Source: Spirochaetales bacterium (GTDB lineage: Bacteria; Spirochaetota; Spirochaetia; Sphaerochaetales; Sphaerochaetaceae). Taken from it: a stretch of 39,305 bases of DNA. The notes beneath the pieces are model-generated. The model did not search any database and was not told the DNA's origin. It saw only the letters and a program-made list of their open reading frames with translations. Positions 28,980 through 39,305 of this stretch are shown here, piece after piece. The stretch covers positions 1 through 39,305 of the forward strand of contig JAFVDZ010000054.1 of assembly GCA_017478205.1 (NCBI GenBank), written 5' to 3'. Position numbers and translations under genes: made by a program. The number at the start of each line of letters is the position of its first letter. The first letter of the stretch is position 1.

Positions 28980-29759
28980 ATGAACCTTGGTATACCGTCG
29001 TTGATTGAATTCAGAACCGTCAGGGAGCATTTGGCATTTGCCAGAGAAAAGGGCTTTTCTTTCTTCGAGATGAACCTTTCCTTCCCTTGGTTCCAGTCTG
29101 ACAAGCTCGATATAGCTGAGCTTGTCAGATTATCAAAGGAATATAAGGTAGGATATACGATTCACCTTCATGACCAGCTAAATCCTTTTGATTTCTCTCC
29201 TGAGATAAGAGAAGGAGCCATCAAGAGCATCGAATATGCTCTGCATCTTGCAGAGAGCGTGAACGCAAAAAAGCTCACTATCCATCTTCAGAATGGAATG
29301 TATTCATCAGTAAATGGAACAAAGATCTATGCTTATGAAGTTGCAAGCGATGAATACATTTACTATGTTGATAAGATGGCAAGACTGGTCGAAAGTTGTC
29401 TCGGTAACTCTGATAGCTTCTTCTGTATTGAAAACACCAAGGGATTTCTTCCTTATCACAAGAAGGCTATTGAGCACCTACTTTCATTTCCTTGCTTTGG
29501 TTTGACCTTCGATGTTGGTCACAACGCAAAGGCGAGTGAGGATGATGAAGCCTTCATCCTATCTTACAAGGACAGGATAAAGCACTTTCACATCCACGAT
29601 GTCACCATAAAGGCTAATCATGTTGCCTTGGGAACTGGATACCTTGATATTCCATATTACATTGATCTTGCAAGAAAAATAGATGAAAGTGTAGTGCTTG
29701 AAGTGAAAGAGACAAAGGCTATCGAGGAGAGTCTGGTATACCTTGAAACAATCCAATAG
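28980..29759 (+). CDS. sugar isomerase/epimerase-like TIM-barrel protein (AP_endonuc_2 family)
   Basis: A 259-residue xylose-isomerase-like TIM barrel. Candidate metal ligands sit on successive strands: Glu151 (FCIENTK), Asp178/His181 (TFDVGHN), His204/His206 (HFHIHD) and Glu241 (VVLEVKE). The family includes sugar and inositol isomerases, epimerases and endonuclease IV. Being the last gene in a LacI-controlled importer operon, it most likely converts the imported sugar or polyol derivative. It starts 3 nt after the ATPase stop. Confidence 0.82.
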   Translation: MNLGIPSLIEFRTVREHLAFAREKGFSFFEMNLSFPWFQSDKLDIAELVRLSKEYKVGYTIHLHDQLNPFDFSPEIREGAIKSIEYALHLAESVNAKKLTIHLQNGMYSSVNGTKIYAYEVASDEYIYYVDKMARLVESCLGNSDSFFCIENTKGFLPYHKKAIEHLLSFPCFGLTFDVGHNAKASEDDEAFILSYKDRIKHFHIHDVTIKANHVALGTGYLDIPYYIDLARKIDESVVLEVKETKAIEESLVYLETIQ

Positions 29760-29989: not shown

Positions 29990-31183
29990 TTACTCAGCAT
30001 CGATAGTCGTCCAGCCAGATGGAATACCATTTGCATCCGTTGTCCAGAAATCTGCATCTGCTGGTCTTGTGAATGATCCAGTAGGAGCTACGGAACTTAG
30101 CCAGATTTTTGTTGCATCGAGTGCTGTAGTCTTTGCAAGGCATGTAACAGAAGCAAGATTTGTACAACCAGAGAACATTCCTTCGTAACAGCGCTCAACA
30201 AGTGTAGTAGCCGGAAGTTCTGGTGCTTTTGTGAGGCTCGTGCATCCAAAGAACATATAACCATAGCAAAGTCTGAACAATGTATTAGCAGGAAGAGATG
30301 GTGTTGAAGTGAGTCCTGTACAGTTGCTAAACATTCCTTCGTAACAGCGCTCAGCAAGTGTAGTAGCTGGGAGCTCTGGGGCCTTTGTAAGGTTTGAACA
30401 GTTGTTGAACATTGTTTGATAACAAAGAGGAGCCAAGGTTGTAGCTGGGAGCTCTGGTGCTGAAACAAGTGCTTCGCATCCAAAGAACATTGAAGAGTAG
30501 CACTGTTCAGCCAAGTTCATGGCTGGTAGTTTTGGAGCTTTTATAAGCTTTTTGCATCCATAGAACATGAAAGAGTAGCAAGCTTCGGCAAGCGTAGTAG
30601 CAGGAAGCTCTGGTGCCGTGATAAGTCCTTCGCATTCATAGAACATTTCATTGTAACAATTGTCAGATAATGTAGTTGCTGGCAGTACAAGGTCTTTTGT
30701 TTCGTGGTTCTTTATATGTGAGTTACCTTTGAACAGGACCCTGAATGCATAAGAATGATTTTCCAGGGATGTATTGGATGCAAAATCAGTTGATGTGATC
30801 AAGCTCATTATGTTGCCATAGATATAACAGTCAGAAGAGCAGCTAATGGATACGGCTTTTGCAGTTGAACCTGAGTTTTCTTTTCTGTCTCCATAGAAGC
30901 AGATTGTCTCGCCTGGTCCTACTGGAAAGGAATGAATTCCGGCACCAGATATTTCATGTTGATCTCCACCAGAGATAGAGTATTTCAGTTTGATCTCCTC
31001 GTCGCTGTATCTCGTGATATTAACTGTAACCATCATGTCGCTGTCTCCACAATTTTCCAGTGTCAGTGGAGTTGACTTTGCATCGAATGATGGTTTCTTT
31101 GAAGAGCTATTGTCGTCACACGCGACAAAGCAGAATAGCATGGCCAGAACAATAAGAGAGGCTAATAGAAGTTTTTTCAGCAT
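29990..31183 (-). CDS. BspA-like repeat lipoprotein 1 (7 repeats)
   Basis: A 397-residue lipoprotein (lipobox FVAC, Cys about 21; then a Ser-rich linker). A beta-rich N domain (about 35-155; FYGDRKENSG, YIYGNIMSLI) precedes seven 26-residue repeats of the form CY..MF..C..L..AP.LPATTLA.. (about 165-350) and a conserved C-terminal cap (FWTTDANGIPSGWT). The repeats resemble BspA-type leucine-rich repeats, so a cell-surface or adhesion role is plausible but unproven. The DNA period is 78 nt; two blocks 156 nt apart (about 30175 and 30331) are nearly identical, a sign of recent internal duplication. Start ATG 31183 has AAGGGG 8 nt upstream. Confidence 0.85.
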   Translation of the reverse strand: MLKKLLLASLIVLAMLFCFVACDDNSSSKKPSFDAKSTPLTLENCGDSDMMVTVNITRYSDEEIKLKYSISGGDQHEISGAGIHSFPVGPGETICFYGDRKENSGSTAKAVSISCSSDCYIYGNIMSLITSTDFASNTSLENHSYAFRVLFKGNSHIKNHETKDLVLPATTLSDNCYNEMFYECEGLITAPELPATTLAEACYSFMFYGCKKLIKAPKLPAMNLAEQCYSSMFFGCEALVSAPELPATTLAPLCYQTMFNNCSNLTKAPELPATTLAERCYEGMFSNCTGLTSTPSLPANTLFRLCYGYMFFGCTSLTKAPELPATTLVERCYEGMFSGCTNLASVTCLAKTTALDATKIWLSSVAPTGSFTRPADADFWTTDANGIPSGWTTIDAE

Positions 31184-31216
31184 ATTTAATTCCCCTTGTT
31201 AAAAATACTTACCTCA

Positions 31217-31245
31217 AAGATATCTTCTCTTTTTTTGCTTGTACA
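31217..31245 (-). promoter_or_regulatory. promoter of repeat-lipoprotein gene 1
   Basis: On the minus strand TGTACA (31240-31245), 17 nt, TATCTT (31217-31222). The same architecture precedes genes 3 and 4. The -10 is embedded in an almost perfect AAAGATATCTT palindrome (31216-31226). Confidence 0.65.
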
Positions 31246-31412
31246 TGAGATAAAGAATTTTTCATGAGTGCAAGATGACTATTTGAACGGTAAACAGTTA
31301 ATTGATGAAAACGATTAGGTGATTACACATTTTGCTTTTGTTTGTCGAATAAACCATGGATAAAAGGAAAGATTTGCTCTAATGTCATTCTGTGCCAATC
31401 TACTATAAAGAA
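31246..31412. other. non-coding spacer between repeat-lipoprotein genes 1 and 2, homologous to 34311-34477
   Basis: No gene. This spacer, upstream of the gene 1 promoter, aligns by eye with the spacer upstream of gene 3 (shared TTTGTCGAAT, GGAAAG.TTTG, TTCTGTGCC.ATCT). This indicates that spacer and gene were duplicated as a unit. Confidence 0.6.
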
Positions 31413-31447
31413 ATCCCCATTGTTGGTTAGCTCCAACGAATGAGGAT
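31413..31447 (-). terminator. terminator of repeat-lipoprotein gene 2
   Basis: ATCC.CATT.GTTGG pairs with CCAAC.GAATG.GGAT with one mismatch and one bulge. On the minus strand it is followed by TTCTTTAT. It lies 60 nt past the gene 2 stop. Confidence 0.7.
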
Positions 31448-31506
31448 GTTTCTTTACTTGTTTTCTGGTCTTGGCCTATTTAAAAGAATATCTTGTGTGA
31501 ATTTGC

Positions 31507-32628
31507 TTACTTCGCAACTAAACTCTCCCAGCCGGAAGGAATACCATCTGCATCCGTTGTCCAGAAATCTGCATCTGCTGCTTTAGTGAATTTTCCAGAA
31601 GATGCTACGCCATTTAACCATTTTTTTGTTGCTTGATTTGCTGTCTGGGTTGCAAGACAAGTAACAGCTGTGAGGTTTGAACATCCTTGGAACATCCCCC
31701 AATAGCAGTAATCAGCCAATGTTGTGGCCGGGAGTAGTGGAGCCTTAGTTAAGCTTGTGCAGTCACCGAACATTCCATTGTAGCAATTAGATACAAGATC
31801 CATCGCTGGAAGTTCTGGTGCTTCTGCAAGCTTTGCGCAGCCACCGAACATGTTTTCGTAGCAATTGGCAACTAGTGTTGTGGCAGGGAGTTCTGGTGCT
31901 TTTTCGAGGCTTGAACAATTTAAGAACATCCAAGAGTAGCAACTAGCAGCGAGAGACCTTGCAGGAAGTGCTGGTGCCTTTGTTAATCCTGCACAGTTGA
32001 AGAACATGCTGAAATAGCAGTTATCAGTGAGTGTTGTAGCTGGAAGCTCAGGGGCCTCTGTGAGCTTCTCGCAAAACGAGAACATTTCACAGTAGCACCA
32101 ATCTGCTAGCTTTGTTGCAGGAAGGATCAAGCTCTTTGTCTTATGATTCTTTAGGTGTGAGTTTTCTAGGAACAACTTATAGAATGCATAAGGGTGGTTC
32201 TCTAGCGATGTGCTGGATGCGAAATCCTCTGAATTTATGAGACTCATCACATTGCCATATACATAGCAATCGGAAGAGCAGGTAATTGATATATAGCTTC
32301 TTGCAGAACCTGTCATTTCTTGCCTGTCTCCGTAGAAGCTGATCGTCCCACCTGCTCCTACCGAAATAAGAGGCGCTCCAGAGCTAGGTATATCTTGTTT
32401 TTCTCCACCATCGACAGAGTATTTCAGGTTGATCTCATCTGCTTCATATCCTTCGATTGTGACCGAAACAATCATGACGCTGTTCCCACTGTTTTCTAGT
32501 GTCAGTGGAGTTGCTTTTTCTCCGACGGGGAGGATTTTCTTTGTTGATGAAGTGCTGTCATCACAGGAAACGAAGCAGAAGAGTGTAGCTAAGACCACAA
32601 GAGAGAAAACTAGAATTATTTTGTACAT
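31507..32628 (-). CDS. BspA-like repeat lipoprotein 2 (6 repeats)
   Basis: A 373-residue paralogue with a different signal peptide (MYKIILVFSLVV..., lipobox FVSC), the same N domain, six CY..MF..C repeats and the same cap (FWTTDADGIPSGW). ATG 32628 has AAGGAGA upstream; the longer frame from 32676 is rejected. Unlike its three paralogues, its promoter region lacks the TGTACA-N17-TATCTT element and instead has an inverted repeat TTCAAGA/TCTTGAA (32651-32671). It is the most divergent upstream, yet its 3' end shares a 32-nt identical stretch with gene 1. Confidence 0.84.
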   Translation of the reverse strand: MYKIILVFSLVVLATLFCFVSCDDSTSSTKKILPVGEKATPLTLENSGNSVMIVSVTIEGYEADEINLKYSVDGGEKQDIPSSGAPLISVGAGGTISFYGDRQEMTGSARSYISITCSSDCYVYGNVMSLINSEDFASSTSLENHPYAFYKLFLENSHLKNHKTKSLILPATKLADWCYCEMFSFCEKLTEAPELPATTLTDNCYFSMFFNCAGLTKAPALPARSLAASCYSWMFLNCSSLEKAPELPATTLVANCYENMFGGCAKLAEAPELPAMDLVSNCYNGMFGDCTSLTKAPLLPATTLADYCYWGMFQGCSNLTAVTCLATQTANQATKKWLNGVASSGKFTKAADADFWTTDADGIPSGWESLVAK

Positions 32629-32650
32629 TGCTGTATCTCCTTTTTTTGAG

Positions 32651-32671
32651 TTCAAGATCAGATGTCTTGAA
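32651..32671 (-). promoter_or_regulatory. inverted repeat upstream of repeat-lipoprotein gene 2
   Basis: TTCAAGA (32651-32657) and TCTTGAA (32665-32671) lie 23 nt upstream of the start codon, where the paralogues have their -10 palindrome. It could be an operator or a 5'-leader hairpin specific to this copy. Confidence 0.4.
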
Positions 32672-32905
32672 TTCAAATTCTTTTTTCTATGTTTCCTATC
32701 TCCTTTTGTGTTGTTTTCTCGTGTCTAAGATAGCTCTTACTCTATTTCTTTGTATATTGGGAACAGGCAGACTTATTAATTTAAGTTAATTATTTAGACA
32801 GAATATAATTAATTAGAGGAAAAGAGATTATAAATCAGACACTTTATCAAAGTGTGTTGAGGTATCATTGTACTTTTAGATTATATTGATTAGAAGGGTT
32901 AACAA
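32672..32905. other. AT-rich non-coding spacer between repeat-lipoprotein genes 2 and 3
   Basis: No gene. T-rich on the plus strand (32680-32760), then very AT-rich. It does not resemble the other two spacers of the array by eye. The promoter of gene 2 must lie here but I could not place it. Confidence 0.4.
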
Positions 32906-32935
32906 ACCCCATGTCAGATTGTTTCTGCATGGGGT
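32906..32935 (-). terminator. terminator of repeat-lipoprotein gene 3
   Basis: ACCCCATG (32906-32913) / CATGGGGT (32928-32935) with an inner CAG/CTG, followed on the minus strand by TTGTT. It lies 36 nt past the gene 3 stop. Confidence 0.7.
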
Positions 32936-32970
32936 AGTTGTGATTTTACGTCTGGTTCTGTTTTTTTCAA

Positions 32971-34245
32971 TTACTCTGCATCGACAGTCTCCCAACCAGA
33001 AGGAATACCGTTTCTTCCTGTTTCCCAGAATGTTGCGTCTGATGCTTTGATGAATTTTCCAGAAGAAGATACTCCCTCTGTCCAACTGGAGGTTGCATTT
33101 GTAGCTGTAGTAGTTGCAAGACATTCAATATAAGAGATCTTTGAACATTCAACGAACATTCCTTCGTAGCAGTCGTTGGCAAGTGTTTTAGCAGGGAGTT
33201 TTGGTGCTTTGGTAAGGCTTCGGCACCCTGCAAACATGACACTGTAACAATGATCCTGTAATGTCTCGGCTGGAAGAATTTCTGGTGCAGAAGAAAGCTC
33301 TATACAGCCATAGAACATGCCATCGTAGCAGTTTTTAGCAAGGCTGGTAGCATTGAGAGCTGGTGCTTCCAAAAGGGCTTCGCAACCATTGAACATTCTA
33401 TGGTAGCAATATTCAGTAAGCTCAGTGGCTGGTAATGCCGGTGATTTTGTTAAAGCAGTGCAGCCGTTGAACATAGCGTTATAGCAATATCCAGCAAGTT
33501 CAGTAGCAGGGAGTTTAGGTGCTTCCTTGAGGGCTTCGCAATCAGAGAACATTCCATCGTAGCAATTATTTTTTAATGTCTTTGCTGGGAGAGCTGGAGC
33601 TTTTTCAAGTGCAGTGCAACCACTGAACATCGAGCTGTAGCAATACTCAGCAATATTGGTAGCAGGGAGCGCTGGAGCCTTGTTAAGGCCTTCACATCCA
33701 TAGAACATTTCTGCGTAGCAATGAGGTGCCAGTGTCTGTGCAGGAAGGACTAGCTCCTTTGATTCATGCAGTTTTAATTTCGTATTATTCCTGAACAAGC
33801 CTTTAAATGCATATGCATATTTCTCTAGCGAAGTATTGGACTCAAAATCAGTTGATGTTATAAGGCTCATCACGTTGCCATAAACATAACAAGCAGAAGA
33901 ACAGGCAATTGAGATAGTCTTTGCTTGTGAGCTTGCATTTTCAGCTCTGTCTCCGTAAAAGCTGATGGTCTTGCCTGCTTCTACCTCAATGAAGGGCATT
34001 CCAGTGCTAGGTATTTCTTGCATGTTTCCACCATCTATAGAATATTTCATATTGGCTTCGTCTGGACCAAATCCTGAGATAGTTATTGTTACTATCAAGG
34101 AGTCGTTGCCGATGTTTTCCAGTGTCAGTGGGGTTGACTTTGCATCGAATGATGGTTTCTTTGAAGAGCTGCTGTCGTCACATGCGACAAAGCAGAATAG
34201 CATGGCCAATATTATAAGTAAGGCCGATATTAGTTTTTTCAACAT
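32971..34245 (-). CDS. BspA-like repeat lipoprotein 3 (8 repeats)
   Basis: The longest paralogue, 424 residues: lipobox FVAC, the same N domain, eight CY..MF..C repeats (one is a residue longer around EILPAETL) and the C-terminal cap (FWETGRNGIPSGWE). ATG 34245 with AGGGGA upstream is preferred over the open frame reaching 34311, which contains the promoter. Signal and linker DNA are almost identical to genes 1 and 4, as expected of recent duplicates. Confidence 0.85.
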   Translation of the reverse strand: MLKKLISALLIILAMLFCFVACDDSSSSKKPSFDAKSTPLTLENIGNDSLIVTITISGFGPDEANMKYSIDGGNMQEIPSTGMPFIEVEAGKTISFYGDRAENASSQAKTISIACSSACYVYGNVMSLITSTDFESNTSLEKYAYAFKGLFRNNTKLKLHESKELVLPAQTLAPHCYAEMFYGCEGLNKAPALPATNIAEYCYSSMFSGCTALEKAPALPAKTLKNNCYDGMFSDCEALKEAPKLPATELAGYCYNAMFNGCTALTKSPALPATELTEYCYHRMFNGCEALLEAPALNATSLAKNCYDGMFYGCIELSSAPEILPAETLQDHCYSVMFAGCRSLTKAPKLPAKTLANDCYEGMFVECSKISYIECLATTTATNATSSWTEGVSSSGKFIKASDATFWETGRNGIPSGWETVDAE

Positions 34246-34281
34246 ATTAGTTTCCCCTTTTTTGTTAAAGATACTGTCACA

Positions 34282-34310
34282 AAGATATCTTTCTATTTTC
34301 AGCCTGTACA
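34282..34310 (-). promoter_or_regulatory. promoter of repeat-lipoprotein gene 3
   Basis: On the minus strand TGTACA (34305-34310), 17 nt, TATCTT (34282-34287), with the perfect palindrome AAAGATATCTTT at 34281-34292. Same layout as at genes 1 and 4. Confidence 0.68.
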
Positions 34311-34477
34311 TGAGCTGGGGTAATTTTTCTGAGTGCCAGATAACTATTTGAACGATAAATAATTAATTGAAGGATTTTGTTGGATGATTATACGTTTTAC
34401 CTTTATTTGTCGAATGAACTATGGAAAACGGAAAGGATTTGTTCAAATGTCTTTCTGTGCCGATCTGACATAAAAAA
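34311..34477. other. non-coding spacer between repeat-lipoprotein genes 3 and 4
   Basis: No gene. Homologous by eye to 31246-31412 (the spacer upstream of gene 1), so it is part of a duplicated unit. Confidence 0.6.
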
Positions 34478-34512
34478 ACTCCCATGTTGGATCTAGTCCA
34501 TCGAATGGGAGT
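34478..34512 (-). terminator. terminator of repeat-lipoprotein gene 4
   Basis: ACTCCCAT (34478-34485) pairs with A-TGGGAGT (34505-34512), with inner TTGGA/TCCA pairing. On the minus strand it is followed by TTTTTTTATG, the strongest U-tract of the four. Confidence 0.8.
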
Positions 34513-34578
34513 GTTTTACATCTTGAATTGTTCTCCGGTCTAGTATTTGATTTTAGACCTCTTTTGCAGTGTATTTAA

Positions 34579-35532
34579 CTACATCGTCTTGATAGTCCAT
34601 GCTGTTGGAATACCATTTTCTCCGGTTTCCCAGAATGAAGCGTCTTGTGCCTTTGTGAAAGTTCCATCAGGTGAAACATATTGCAACCACGATTTTGTTG
34701 CCTCTGTATCTGTAGTTGTTGCATGACATGTAACAGAAGCAAGATTTGTGCAACCTTGGAACATCGAAGCATAGCAGTGTATAGCCAGTCTTCTAGCAGG
34801 GAGTTCTGGTGCTTCTGTGAGGGCAGAGCATCCTGTGAACATATTTTGGTAGCAACCAGCAAACAATTCATTAGCAGGTAAGCTTGGTGCAGAAACGAGT
34901 CCAGTACAGTTAGAGAACATTCCTTTGTAACAAAAAAAGGAAAGATTGGTAGCTGGAAGCTCTGGTGCCTTCGTTAGTCCGACGCATCCATAGAACATTT
35001 GGCTGTAACAGAGAGCGCTCAATTTCGTTGCAGGAAGGACTAGTTTCTTTGATTCGTGGTTCTTTATGTTATAGTTGTCTAAGAACAAGTTTAAGAACGC
35101 ATAATCATGACCTTCAAGGGATTTATTTGTTGCGAAATCAGTTGAGGTGATCAAGCTCATCACGTTGCCATATATATAGCAGTCAGTAGAACAGTCGATT
35201 GTGAAATATTTTGTTGATGCGCTTGAATTTTTTGTCCTATCCCCATAGAAACTGATTTTCTTTCCTGCTCCTACTATAATAAGTGAATCAGTTTCAGTTA
35301 TTTCGATTGCGTCTTCATTGTCGATAGAATACTTCAGTTTTACTTCCTCTAGGCTGAATCCAGTGATTGAAACTGTAACAGTCATGTCTGTGTCTCCATA
35401 GTTTTCCAGAGTCAAAGGAGTTGACTTTGCATCGAATGATGGTTTCTTTGAAGAGCTGCTGTCGTCACATGCGACAAAACAGAATAGTATGGCCATGAAT
35501 ATAAGAGAGGCCGATATTAGTTTTTTCAACAT
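34579..35532 (-). CDS. BspA-like repeat lipoprotein 4 (4 repeats)
   Basis: The shortest paralogue, 317 residues: lipobox FVAC, the same N domain, only four CY..MF..C repeats and the cap (FWETGENGIPTAWT) with an altered last few residues. ATG 35532 with AAGGGG upstream is used; the open frame to 35679 extends over the promoter. It is the outermost (5'-most) member of the array and borders the mobile-element zone. Confidence 0.85.
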   Translation of the reverse strand: MLKKLISASLIFMAILFCFVACDDSSSSKKPSFDAKSTPLTLENYGDTDMTVTVSITGFSLEEVKLKYSIDNEDAIEITETDSLIIVGAGKKISFYGDRTKNSSASTKYFTIDCSTDCYIYGNVMSLITSTDFATNKSLEGHDYAFLNLFLDNYNIKNHESKKLVLPATKLSALCYSQMFYGCVGLTKAPELPATNLSFFCYKGMFSNCTGLVSAPSLPANELFAGCYQNMFTGCSALTEAPELPARRLAIHCYASMFQGCTNLASVTCHATTTDTEATKSWLQYVSPDGTFTKAQDASFWETGENGIPTAWTIKTM

Positions 35533-35566
35533 ATTTAATTCCCCTTGTTTAAATATACTAGTCACA

Positions 35567-35595
35567 AAGATATCTTTCTCATTAACGCATGTACA
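35567..35595 (-). promoter_or_regulatory. promoter of repeat-lipoprotein gene 4
   Basis: On the minus strand TGTACA (35590-35595), 17 nt, TATCTT (35567-35572), with the palindrome AAAGATATCTTT at 35566-35577. Confidence 0.68.
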
Positions 35596-35728
35596 TGAGA
35601 TATGGGAAACTTTTAGGTTTATGATAACTAATTGAACGATAAGGAAATAAACGATGAATATTGATGGGTGATACGACACTTTCTGTTATTGTGTTGAATT
35701 ATCAAAAGTTCTCAGTTTTTACTTTTTT

Positions 35729-35806
35729 GAAAATGAAAGAATCCTCAACACCCGCAACAAAGATGTTAAGAAGAGAATGTACATGGCCATGCAGGTGGTA
35801 AAGTAG
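35729..35806 (+). pseudogene. possible C-terminal gene remnant
   Basis: The frame ENERILNTRNKDVKKRMYMAMQVVK ends at TAG 35804-35806. It has protein-like composition (basic, with a closing amphipathic stretch) but no start codon or upstream coding. It could be the tail of a decayed transposase-type gene; I cannot name it. Confidence 0.25.
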
Positions 35807-35825: not shown

Positions 35826-35948
35826 GTGGAAACACTTACACCGATTCAGAAAGAAATAGTAACTGCACTTGAAGACGATGTGAATGCAGATGAAAATGAT
35901 ATTTCTCATATAGCCCTTTTTGAAAACGGAAGAATAAATTTGAAGTAA
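35826..35948 (+). CDS. small 40-codon ORF or remnant with a TPIQKEIVT motif
   Basis: From GTG 35826 the frame encodes V-E-T-L-TPIQKEIVTALEDDV..., ending ...NGRINLK at TAA 35946-35948. There is no clear Shine-Dalgarno. The same TPIQKEIVT start occurs in a second frame directly after the ATPase gene (37285), and the DNA is 29/30 identical there. It may be a decayed copy of a small partner gene of the ATPase. Function unknown. Confidence 0.35.
   Translation: METLTPIQKEIVTALEDDVNADENDISHIALFENGRINLK
35836..35865 (+). repeat. 30-nt direct repeat, left copy
   Basis: Begins TTACACCGATTCAGAAAG and ends AGTAACTG. It matches 37295-37324 at 29 of 30 positions, and the two copies bracket the ATPase gene. 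Confidence 0.85.
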
Positions 35949-37284: not shown

Positions 37285-37362
37285 ATGACTGATTTTACAC
37301 CGATTCAAAAAGAAATAGTAACTGTCCTTTATGATGTGACCACATTTTGTTGGACACATTGA
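37285..37362 (+). pseudogene. 5' fragment of a gene coupled to the ATPase, cut by an IS
   Basis: ATG 37285 follows the ATPase TAG directly. The frame reads MTDFTPIQKEIVTVLYD and then runs into the end of an IS3-type remnant (about 37335), ending artificially at 37362. It shares TPIQKEIVT with the small ORF at 35826. The original gene was probably longer and co-translated with the ATPase. Confidence 0.5.
37295..37324 (+). repeat. 30-nt direct repeat, right copy
   Basis: Matches 35836-35865 with a single G-to-A difference. A shorter, imperfect inverted copy (TTACACCGAATTCAG on the minus strand) lies at 37669-37683, exactly at the broken end of the IS remnant. Confidence 0.85.
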
Positions 37363-38410: not shown

Positions 38411-39267
38411 GATATGAGTTTCTTAAAAAGAATCGAGGAAACTACAATATCGAGAGGGCCTGCAGAATACTGAAAGTCTCACGAGGTGGATTCTATGAAT
38501 ATCTCAAGCGGAAACCTTCCGCACGGCAAATAGAGAATGAATACATACTTTCTCTTGTCAAGGAGATATTCGACCGTCATGAAGGAAGATATGGTGCTCT
38601 CAGAATCAGTCTGGAACTGAAAGATAAGGGTGTCATTGTCAACCGCAAGAGAGTGGCAAGACTGATGAGGGAGAATGGACTCTACGCACTGGGAACAAGT
38701 CGGCATTACAGGAACTATCACAGGAAGAACAACAATAAAGAAAAGCCAAATCTCCTGAAAAGAGTTTTCGAGTCGAATGGAAGAAACAGGATATGGCTTG
38801 GTGACATGACATATATCCCTACAAAAGAAGGATTCCTTTATCTGGCTGTCATGCTGGATGTGTTCTCCCGAAAGGTCACTGGATGGGCAATGGGAAATAG
38901 AATGACCGAGAACCTGGTCATGGATGCTCTCAGACAGGCACATGGCAAGGAGCAACCTGAAAAGGGATTCATAGTCCACACAGATCAGGGCTCCCAGTAT
39001 ACAGGGAGGAATTTCAGAGCTCTGGTCTCATCTTTGGGTGGTTGCTGCTCAAACAGTCGCAAGGGGAATCCCTATGACAATGCGATGATGGAATCATTCT
39101 ATAGGACTCTCAAGAGAGAACTCATAGATGTAAGAAAATATGAGACGAGAGAGGAAGCAATGAACGATGTCTTCAAATATATAGAGCTTTACTATAATCC
39201 AGTGAGAAGGCATTCAGGTATAGGATATATCTCCCCTCGTCAATTCGAGGAGAGATATTCACAATAA
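38407..39267 (+). CDS. IS3-family transposase OrfB (DDE integrase domain)
   Basis: A 286-residue protein with an HTH_21 region at the start (about 20-75) and a complete rve domain: first Asp in WLGDMTYI, second Asp in IVHTDQGSQYTG, Glu in NAMMESFYRTLKREL. All catalytic residues are present, so the element may be active. It starts at GTG 38407 in the -1 frame relative to OrfA, overlapping it by 4 bp. The OrfB frame is open upstream as far as 38365, consistent with production as an OrfAB fusion. Confidence 0.94.
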   Translation: MRYEFLKKNRGNYNIERACRILKVSRGGFYEYLKRKPSARQIENEYILSLVKEIFDRHEGRYGALRISLELKDKGVIVNRKRVARLMRENGLYALGTSRHYRNYHRKNNNKEKPNLLKRVFESNGRNRIWLGDMTYIPTKEGFLYLAVMLDVFSRKVTGWAMGNRMTENLVMDALRQAHGKEQPEKGFIVHTDQGSQYTGRNFRALVSSLGGCCSNSRKGNPYDNAMMESFYRTLKRELIDVRKYETREEAMNDVFKYIELYYNPVRRHSGIGYISPRQFEERYSQ

Positions 39268-39305
39268 TCTCTTAACTTTGTGTCAAGAAATGCTGGACAA
39301 GTCCA

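Follow-up and report, generated by a model that had tools for sequence, protein, structure and literature searches.

A tandem array of repeat lipoproteins

The stretch of DNA considered here (the window) comprises 39,305 nucleotides of contig JAFVDZ010000054.1 in GenBank assembly GCA_017478205.1, from a spirochaete of the family Sphaerochaetaceae (genome G000; 1.90 Mb in 98 contigs, 97.5% complete). Of particular concern are four minus-strand open reading frames (ORFs), g1 to g4, with 7, 6, 8 and 4 in-register CY..MF..C units, respectively, which the first-pass annotation had rightly described as same-strand lipoprotein genes sharing an N domain, a 26-residue repeat and a C-terminal cap. They are a branch of their own within the BspA-type leucine-rich-repeat (LRR) superfamily, marked by the 26-residue unit, rather than a new kind of system. 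The genes and their upstream regions are as follows:

29990..31183, minus strand: g1, LRR lipoprotein of 397 amino acids with 7 units; lipobox C22, units 30113-30658, C cap 29993-30112
31184..31350, minus strand: conserved upstream region of g1, resembling those of g3 and g4 and, less closely, that of g2 (alignment)
31507..32628, minus strand: g2, LRR lipoprotein of 373 amino acids with 6 units; units 31630-32097, C cap 31510-31629
32971..34245, minus strand: g3, LRR lipoprotein of 424 amino acids with 8 units; lipobox C22, beta N domain 33859-34143, units 33094-33720, C cap 32974-33093
34246..34420, minus strand: conserved upstream region of g3 (alignment)
34579..35532, minus strand: g4, LRR lipoprotein of 317 amino acids with 4 units; units 34699-35010, C cap 34582-34698
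35533..35744, minus strand: conserved upstream region of g4 (alignment)

The unit follows the pattern CYxxMFxxCxxLxxAPxLPATTLxxx with a period of 26 residues (one spacing is 27), and C1, Y2, M5, F6 and C9 are invariant among the tabulated window units. Over the window and related loci together, a spacing of 26 was counted 654 times and the next most frequent, 27, 34 times; since 26 so far outnumbers the other spacings, the period is not a product of chance. At the start of each protein is a signal peptide that closes with [AS]-Cys-Asp-Asp. After it come a short Ser-rich (Ser/Lys) tether, an N domain whose last residues are CYxYGN, a degenerate "unit 0", which in most of the four reads AF..LF..N, the array itself and a C cap that closes with GIPxxW. 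In alignment the four proteins are 57-60% identical to one another, and an upstream leader of roughly 150-200 bp is common to g1, g3 and g4 and less similar in g2, so that every gene seems to be transcribed as a unit of its own. At the signal-peptide end of g3 and g1, AimP_fam (NCBIfam) matches weakly and PHROG over short lengths, and both look like signal-peptide resemblance.

An AlphaFold2 model of g3 (pLDDT 94.9, pTM 0.88, from a 37-sequence alignment) consists of a beta N domain (residues 39-124), then a solenoid, then the cap. Its best match among solved structures is 4fs7, an LRR protein of Bacteroides ovatus (Foldseek E 3.7e-5; VIA Z 18.6 over 298 residues at 4.1 A), and many other LRR chains lie above a VIA Z of 10, with Treponema pallidum TpLRR (6mlx) at 13.2 and 4fd0, 4fdw, 4h09 and 4gt6 also high in the list. 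On the strength of this model the proteins are curved solenoids of the LRR superfamily, and the resemblance to BspA-type repeats proposed from the letters alone is borne out. Folded alone, the N domain reaches a pLDDT of 87, and no convincing solved relative for it emerged from Foldseek or VIA. It had been considered as a carbohydrate-binding module, but the Foldseek rows for CBM35 are weak (best E 0.18) and the best VIA match (Z 5.2) is to a CUB domain.

For the paired cysteines of each unit the first-pass annotation had offered disulfides, metal binding or buried stacking; the last of these is now the most likely. Of 844 in-array units from 99 ORFs of the family, 800 have both cysteines, 13 have C1 only, 31 have C9 only and none lacks both. 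Obligate partners would be expected to show few single losses and many double ones, and the reverse is observed. A strong C1-C9 association in the first test proved to be an artefact of the capping "unit 0" ([AT]F..LF..N), caught by a loose pattern, and the signal was gone once these were removed. A functional disulfide ladder, metal-binding stack or redox array would accord with the retention of C1 and C9 each in more than 96% of in-array units, and a published cysteine ladder does exist in an LRR protein, Listeria InlJ (3bz5; VIA Z 11.4 to the g3 model). Such a ladder is nevertheless highly improbable here: every unit without one cysteine keeps the other, C1 is mostly replaced by V, A, S or G, small residues for the most part, and C9 often by N or S, the mature proteins g1 to g4 contain 19, 16, 19 and 11 cysteines, an odd total in all but g2, and searches for DsbA, VKOR and DsbB found no match in this nearly complete genome, though several control genomes do match. 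It was on the independent losses and the missing Dsb/VKOR matches that the disulfide and metal versions were rejected. Buried thiol packing is the simplest reading and most likely the correct one.

Islands, empty sites and relatives

The array is larger than at first noted. At least 12 paralogues are present in the genome: the four of the window, a single one each on contigs C1 and C70, and six on C29. These form a single clade (support 100/99) with two subclades, the window plus contig C1 and C29 plus C70. Window positions 39165-39305 are identical to the first 141 bp of contig C1, the assembly breaking at an IS3-type element; because of this overlap the two contigs adjoin, which places a fifth LRR gene in the same island. 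The start of g4 and its upstream sequence (about 246 bases from 35501) are 80% identical to the same region of that fifth gene. The further features of this part of the window are:

28980-29759: AP_endonuc_2 gene, flank of the inserted segment
29749..39305: window part of a segment of about 11 kb missing from the sister species, continuing on contig C1
36049..37284, plus strand: AAA_14/DUF4143 ATPase gene, within the inserted segment
38407..39267, plus strand: IS3-type integrase-core (rve) transposase ORF, within the inserted segment, at the contig end

A 30-bp direct repeat (96.7%) lies at 35836-35865 and 37295-37324, either side of the ATPase gene.

In the sister genome G004, which is of the same genus and whose DNA is identical to that of Sphaerochaetaceae isolate RUI394, the AP_endonuc_2 gene and pgi are 53 bp apart with nothing between them. 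Homology to G004 breaks at window position 29748 and at position 1563 of contig C1, and these breakpoints delimit an insert of about 11 kb that carries g1 to g4, the ATPase gene, the IS3-type transposase and the fifth LRR gene. On G004 contig C44, an enolase-like gene (the flank of C70) runs directly to a carbonic-anhydrase region (the flank of C29) with about 130 bp between; since G004 joins their flanks, C70 and C29 probably adjoin as well, giving a second island with seven or more genes. The computation thus places islands at two sites, both of them empty in the sister species; with their empty counterparts for reference, these two clean sites lend themselves to work on how such islands are acquired.

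Within the genus, 14 of 16 genomes lack a convincing match to the family; across the Sphaerochaetaceae, 12 of 139 have one. Given this patchiness, gain in the G000 lineage is likelier than loss in the sister, and the branch was probably acquired recently in this one Sphaerochaetaceae lineage, where it has expanded. The same patchiness, together with the IS3 and AAA_14/DUF4143 genes of the island, might suggest a receptor-binding module of phage or plasmid origin, carried as mobile cargo with no role for the host, and related repeats do occur in a cyanophage tail protein (30.6%) and in a plasmid-borne fimbrillin fusion of Segatella copri. However, all 12 paralogues retain a lipobox and an open frame, no phage structural genes were noted near the array, and strong purifying selection acts on the less variable part of the unit (ratio of nonsynonymous to synonymous change, pN/pS, of 0.2-0.3), which makes pure cargo very unlikely.

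One scan of named genomes gave 79 loci, in Treponema, Sphaerochaetaceae, other Spirochaetota and Prevotella/Bacteroidales; where titles state a source, it is largely a rumen or other ruminant foregut assembly, which ties the branch to rumen spirochaetes and Bacteroidales. Six related loci (L028, L034, L044, L049, L063 and L098) have 9-21 CY..MF units, and in L028 a single protein contains the module of N domain plus array more than once. More distant relatives include, besides the cyanophage and Segatella proteins, plasmid "BspA family" proteins of E. faecalis. In a tree of the N domain and array start the phylum label has to change five times, and neither phylum comes out as a single clade in any bootstrap tree, though the starred branches of that tree alone do not force more than one change. 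Transfer between Spirochaetota and Bacteroidota is likely from this tree, but not proven.

Repeat number, variable positions and probable role

It had been suggested that differences in copy number generate surface variation, and rapid variation of this kind is not what the comparisons indicate. DNA identity between window units is at most about 74%; they do not form a hypermutable repeat, and in g1 Tandem Repeats Finder detects only 2.8 copies. In five orthologue pairs at 86-97% protein identity the unit number is the same and no unit-sized indel occurs (the strict unit count of one of the five differs by substitution, not length), while unit-sized indels of 26 and 52 residues occur in pairs at 74-78%; with repeat counts identical in close orthologues, and gain or loss of units observed solely in pairs that have diverged further, there is no support for rapid change in copy number. 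Unit amplification does happen in a C29 paralogue, the first gene of that contig (L124:3-1127), and not in the four window genes: its units share 88-96% of their DNA bases and include an exact direct repeat of 66 bases, four successive units are 94-96% identical, and the contig breaks inside the gene.

These young C29 units, the 26- and 52-residue indels, the differing unit numbers of the tandem paralogues and the exact DNA blocks shared between genes, up to 59 bases long, are what one would cite in favour of an antigenic-variation locus, in which the arrays serve as a recombination reservoir and unit number or blocks are rapidly shuffled between genes. Against this stand the divergence of the window units and the constant counts in close orthologues, and also the fact that none of the window genes is a silent cassette, all being full length and each having an upstream region of its own. 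Nor is there a match to reverse transcriptase (PF00078) in the genome, hence no diversity-generating retroelement. We regard such a locus as unlikely.

What does vary is the residues within the unit. Positions C1, Y2, M5, F6, C9 and L12 are near-invariant and L18 and L23 are mostly kept, while 3, 4, 7, 8, 25 and 26 vary freely. For 30 independent pairs of young unit duplicates, drawn from 18 loci and at least 85% identical in DNA, these six positions give pN 0.27 and pS 0.13, a pN/pS of 2.03 (locus bootstrap 1.38-3.21), and the other positions a pN/pS of 0.30. Since the six positions had initially been chosen on the very data used to test them, a split-half test was added against circularity; with positions picked on half of the loci and tested on the other half the median pN/pS is 1.95, and with positions picked by family-wide entropy it is 2.12. 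An excess of nonsynonymous change after duplication at the six variable positions is thus moderately supported. BspA-type proteins of Entamoeba moshkovskii are among the genes reported to be under diversifying selection (PMC6414313).

With regard to anchoring, which differs with the host, the lipobox (a basic-hydrophobic stretch, then x-[AS]-Cys) is present in all 12 of the genome's own paralogues, in 28 of 44 other spirochaete relatives and in 19 of 42 Bacteroidota relatives; by this pattern the proteins are lipoproteins, lipidation being predicted. Ten further Bacteroidota relatives without a lipobox have, by pattern, a tail like that of the type IX secretion system (T9SS). The Bacteroidota relatives L063, L064, L086, L097 and L098 have G[RK]..GIYIxNGKKxxIK-like C-termini, which resemble the T9SS type A sorting signal.

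From the computed fold, the lipobox pattern, the paralogue expansion, the two-site insertion and the nonsynonymous excess, we infer where the proteins sit, what they do, which face binds and what selects them. They are probably envelope-anchored LRR ligand-binding proteins of adhesin type, presumably on the surface, that have been amplified and diversified by selection. The near-invariant residues would form the packed core and positions 3, 4, 7, 8, 25 and 26 would be exposed, so that lipid-anchored LRR rods would display one exposed strip per turn. Tannerella forsythia BspA and Treponema denticola LrrA are surface adhesins that bind extracellular-matrix proteins or partner bacteria (PMC2843621), and by analogy with these an adhesin or recognition role is our best guess, the strip binding surface molecules of the host, of plant fibre or of neighbouring cells; alternatively, the strip may answer to immune, phage or predator pressure. 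The six positions per turn are accordingly candidates for a ligand-contacting or immune-selected face. Whole genes would have been amplified into tandem islands, with occasional unit duplication lengthening the arrays, and after duplication selection would alter the exposed positions while the core residues hold the solenoid. The family would then exemplify a repertoire of binding proteins in which the exposed residues are apparently driven to diversify.

Several observations weigh against this reading of the proteins as diversifying surface adhesins. At 90% DNA identity or more, pairs of duplicates give a pN/pS of 1.44 at the variable positions, which is not significant (interval 0.66-3.8), and orthologous units give 0.83 there vs. 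0.27 at the rest; for both reasons part of the excess may be relaxed constraint. Curated profiles for the T9SS tail stay below cut-off on the Bacteroidota relatives, whose tails are therefore called only T9SS-like. Finally, the mature N terminus of the window proteins is Cys-Asp-Asp, which leaves surface display no more than probable, and that of most of the second set (C29/C70) is Cys-Asp-Ser-Asp. Asp at position +2 retains lipoproteins in the inner membrane of E. coli, and one could accordingly picture lipoproteins of the inner membrane that face the periplasm and serve in structure or scavenging. Spirochaete lipoprotein sorting, however, does not simply follow the +2 rule, the Bacteroidota relatives use other anchors, including the T9SS-like tails without a lipobox, and several of them start with the acidic SKDD, SSDD or GDDD, which resemble known surface-export signals. 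Diversification at positions that are presumably exposed also fits poorly with a periplasmic scaffold, and we think an inner-membrane role improbable.

The adhesin reading can be carried one step further, tentatively and with considerable doubt, to a variable LRR receptor repertoire with a fixed Cys core, an exposed strip diversified after unit duplication, amplified islands, and exchange of the family between rumen Spirochaetota and Bacteroidota. If true, this would be a receptor repertoire formally similar to the variable LRR repertoires of eukaryotes.

Comparison with known repeat families

No paper on this 26-residue LRR family was found in literature searches, and general libraries barely detect it. 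The PF13306 (LRR_5) profile gives 29.0 bits for g1 against a cut-off of 27.7, with g2 to g4 below it and the relative L022 at 27.5. The same genome encodes a canonical BspA-type LRR protein in a separate long ORF on another contig (G000:C94:16779-18872), with strong PF13306 matches (best E 3e-34).

The PARCEL family (TIGR02167, DUF285; PMC2996958) has much in common with the array genes: a tandem unit of 25/26 residues, an MF core, frequent occurrence in lipoproteins, and a patchy, horizontally spread distribution. The four proteins score 23.9, 19, 26 and 17.3 bits with TIGR02167, however, all below the cut-off of 30, and membership was rejected. The PARCEL criterion calls for a unit of 25 residues vs. 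26 here, and the W-[ND]-[VT]-S segment of the published examples (PMC2996958) is not in the g1-g4 unit. A search of the array DNA for short-loop dyads, a different method from the MEME analysis of PMC2996958, found no dyad symmetry: in none of the arrays did a hairpin arm score 7 or more, and the arrays did not exceed synonymous shuffles.

Listeria InlJ is likewise an LRR solenoid with a cysteine recurring in its repeats. Its unit is of the internalin type, and the present family differs in having two cysteines per unit, which are lost independently. The Segatella copri plasmid fimbrillin-LRR fusion (WP_218413110.1; PF13306 28.3 bits) carries a repeat of the same type and is 47.5% identical over 58% of g3, but has an Mfa_like_1 fimbrillin domain in place of the beta N domain.

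The closest affinity is with the BspA-type LRR proteins (PF13306), such as Tannerella BspA, Treponema denticola LrrA, TpLRR and the 4fs7 protein BACOVA_04585, with which the array genes share solenoid fold, envelope anchoring and expanded gene families. In a phmmer alignment the F..C..L and LP segments of TpLRR coincide with those of the g1-g4-type unit, which makes C9 the counterpart of the BspA-type cysteine and C1 particular to the 26-residue branch. The canonical BspA-type unit has about 23 residues. In g1 to g4 the unit has 26, with a second cysteine at position 1 before the tyrosine and a CYxxMF core, and the proteins bring their own beta N domain and GIPxxW cap; the cysteine pair and the period are thus unusual, as had been remarked at the outset, though the accompanying suggestion of an undescribed system was too strong. 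On account of the 26-residue unit we file the array genes not as canonical members but as a distinct and coherent branch of the BspA-type LRR superfamily.

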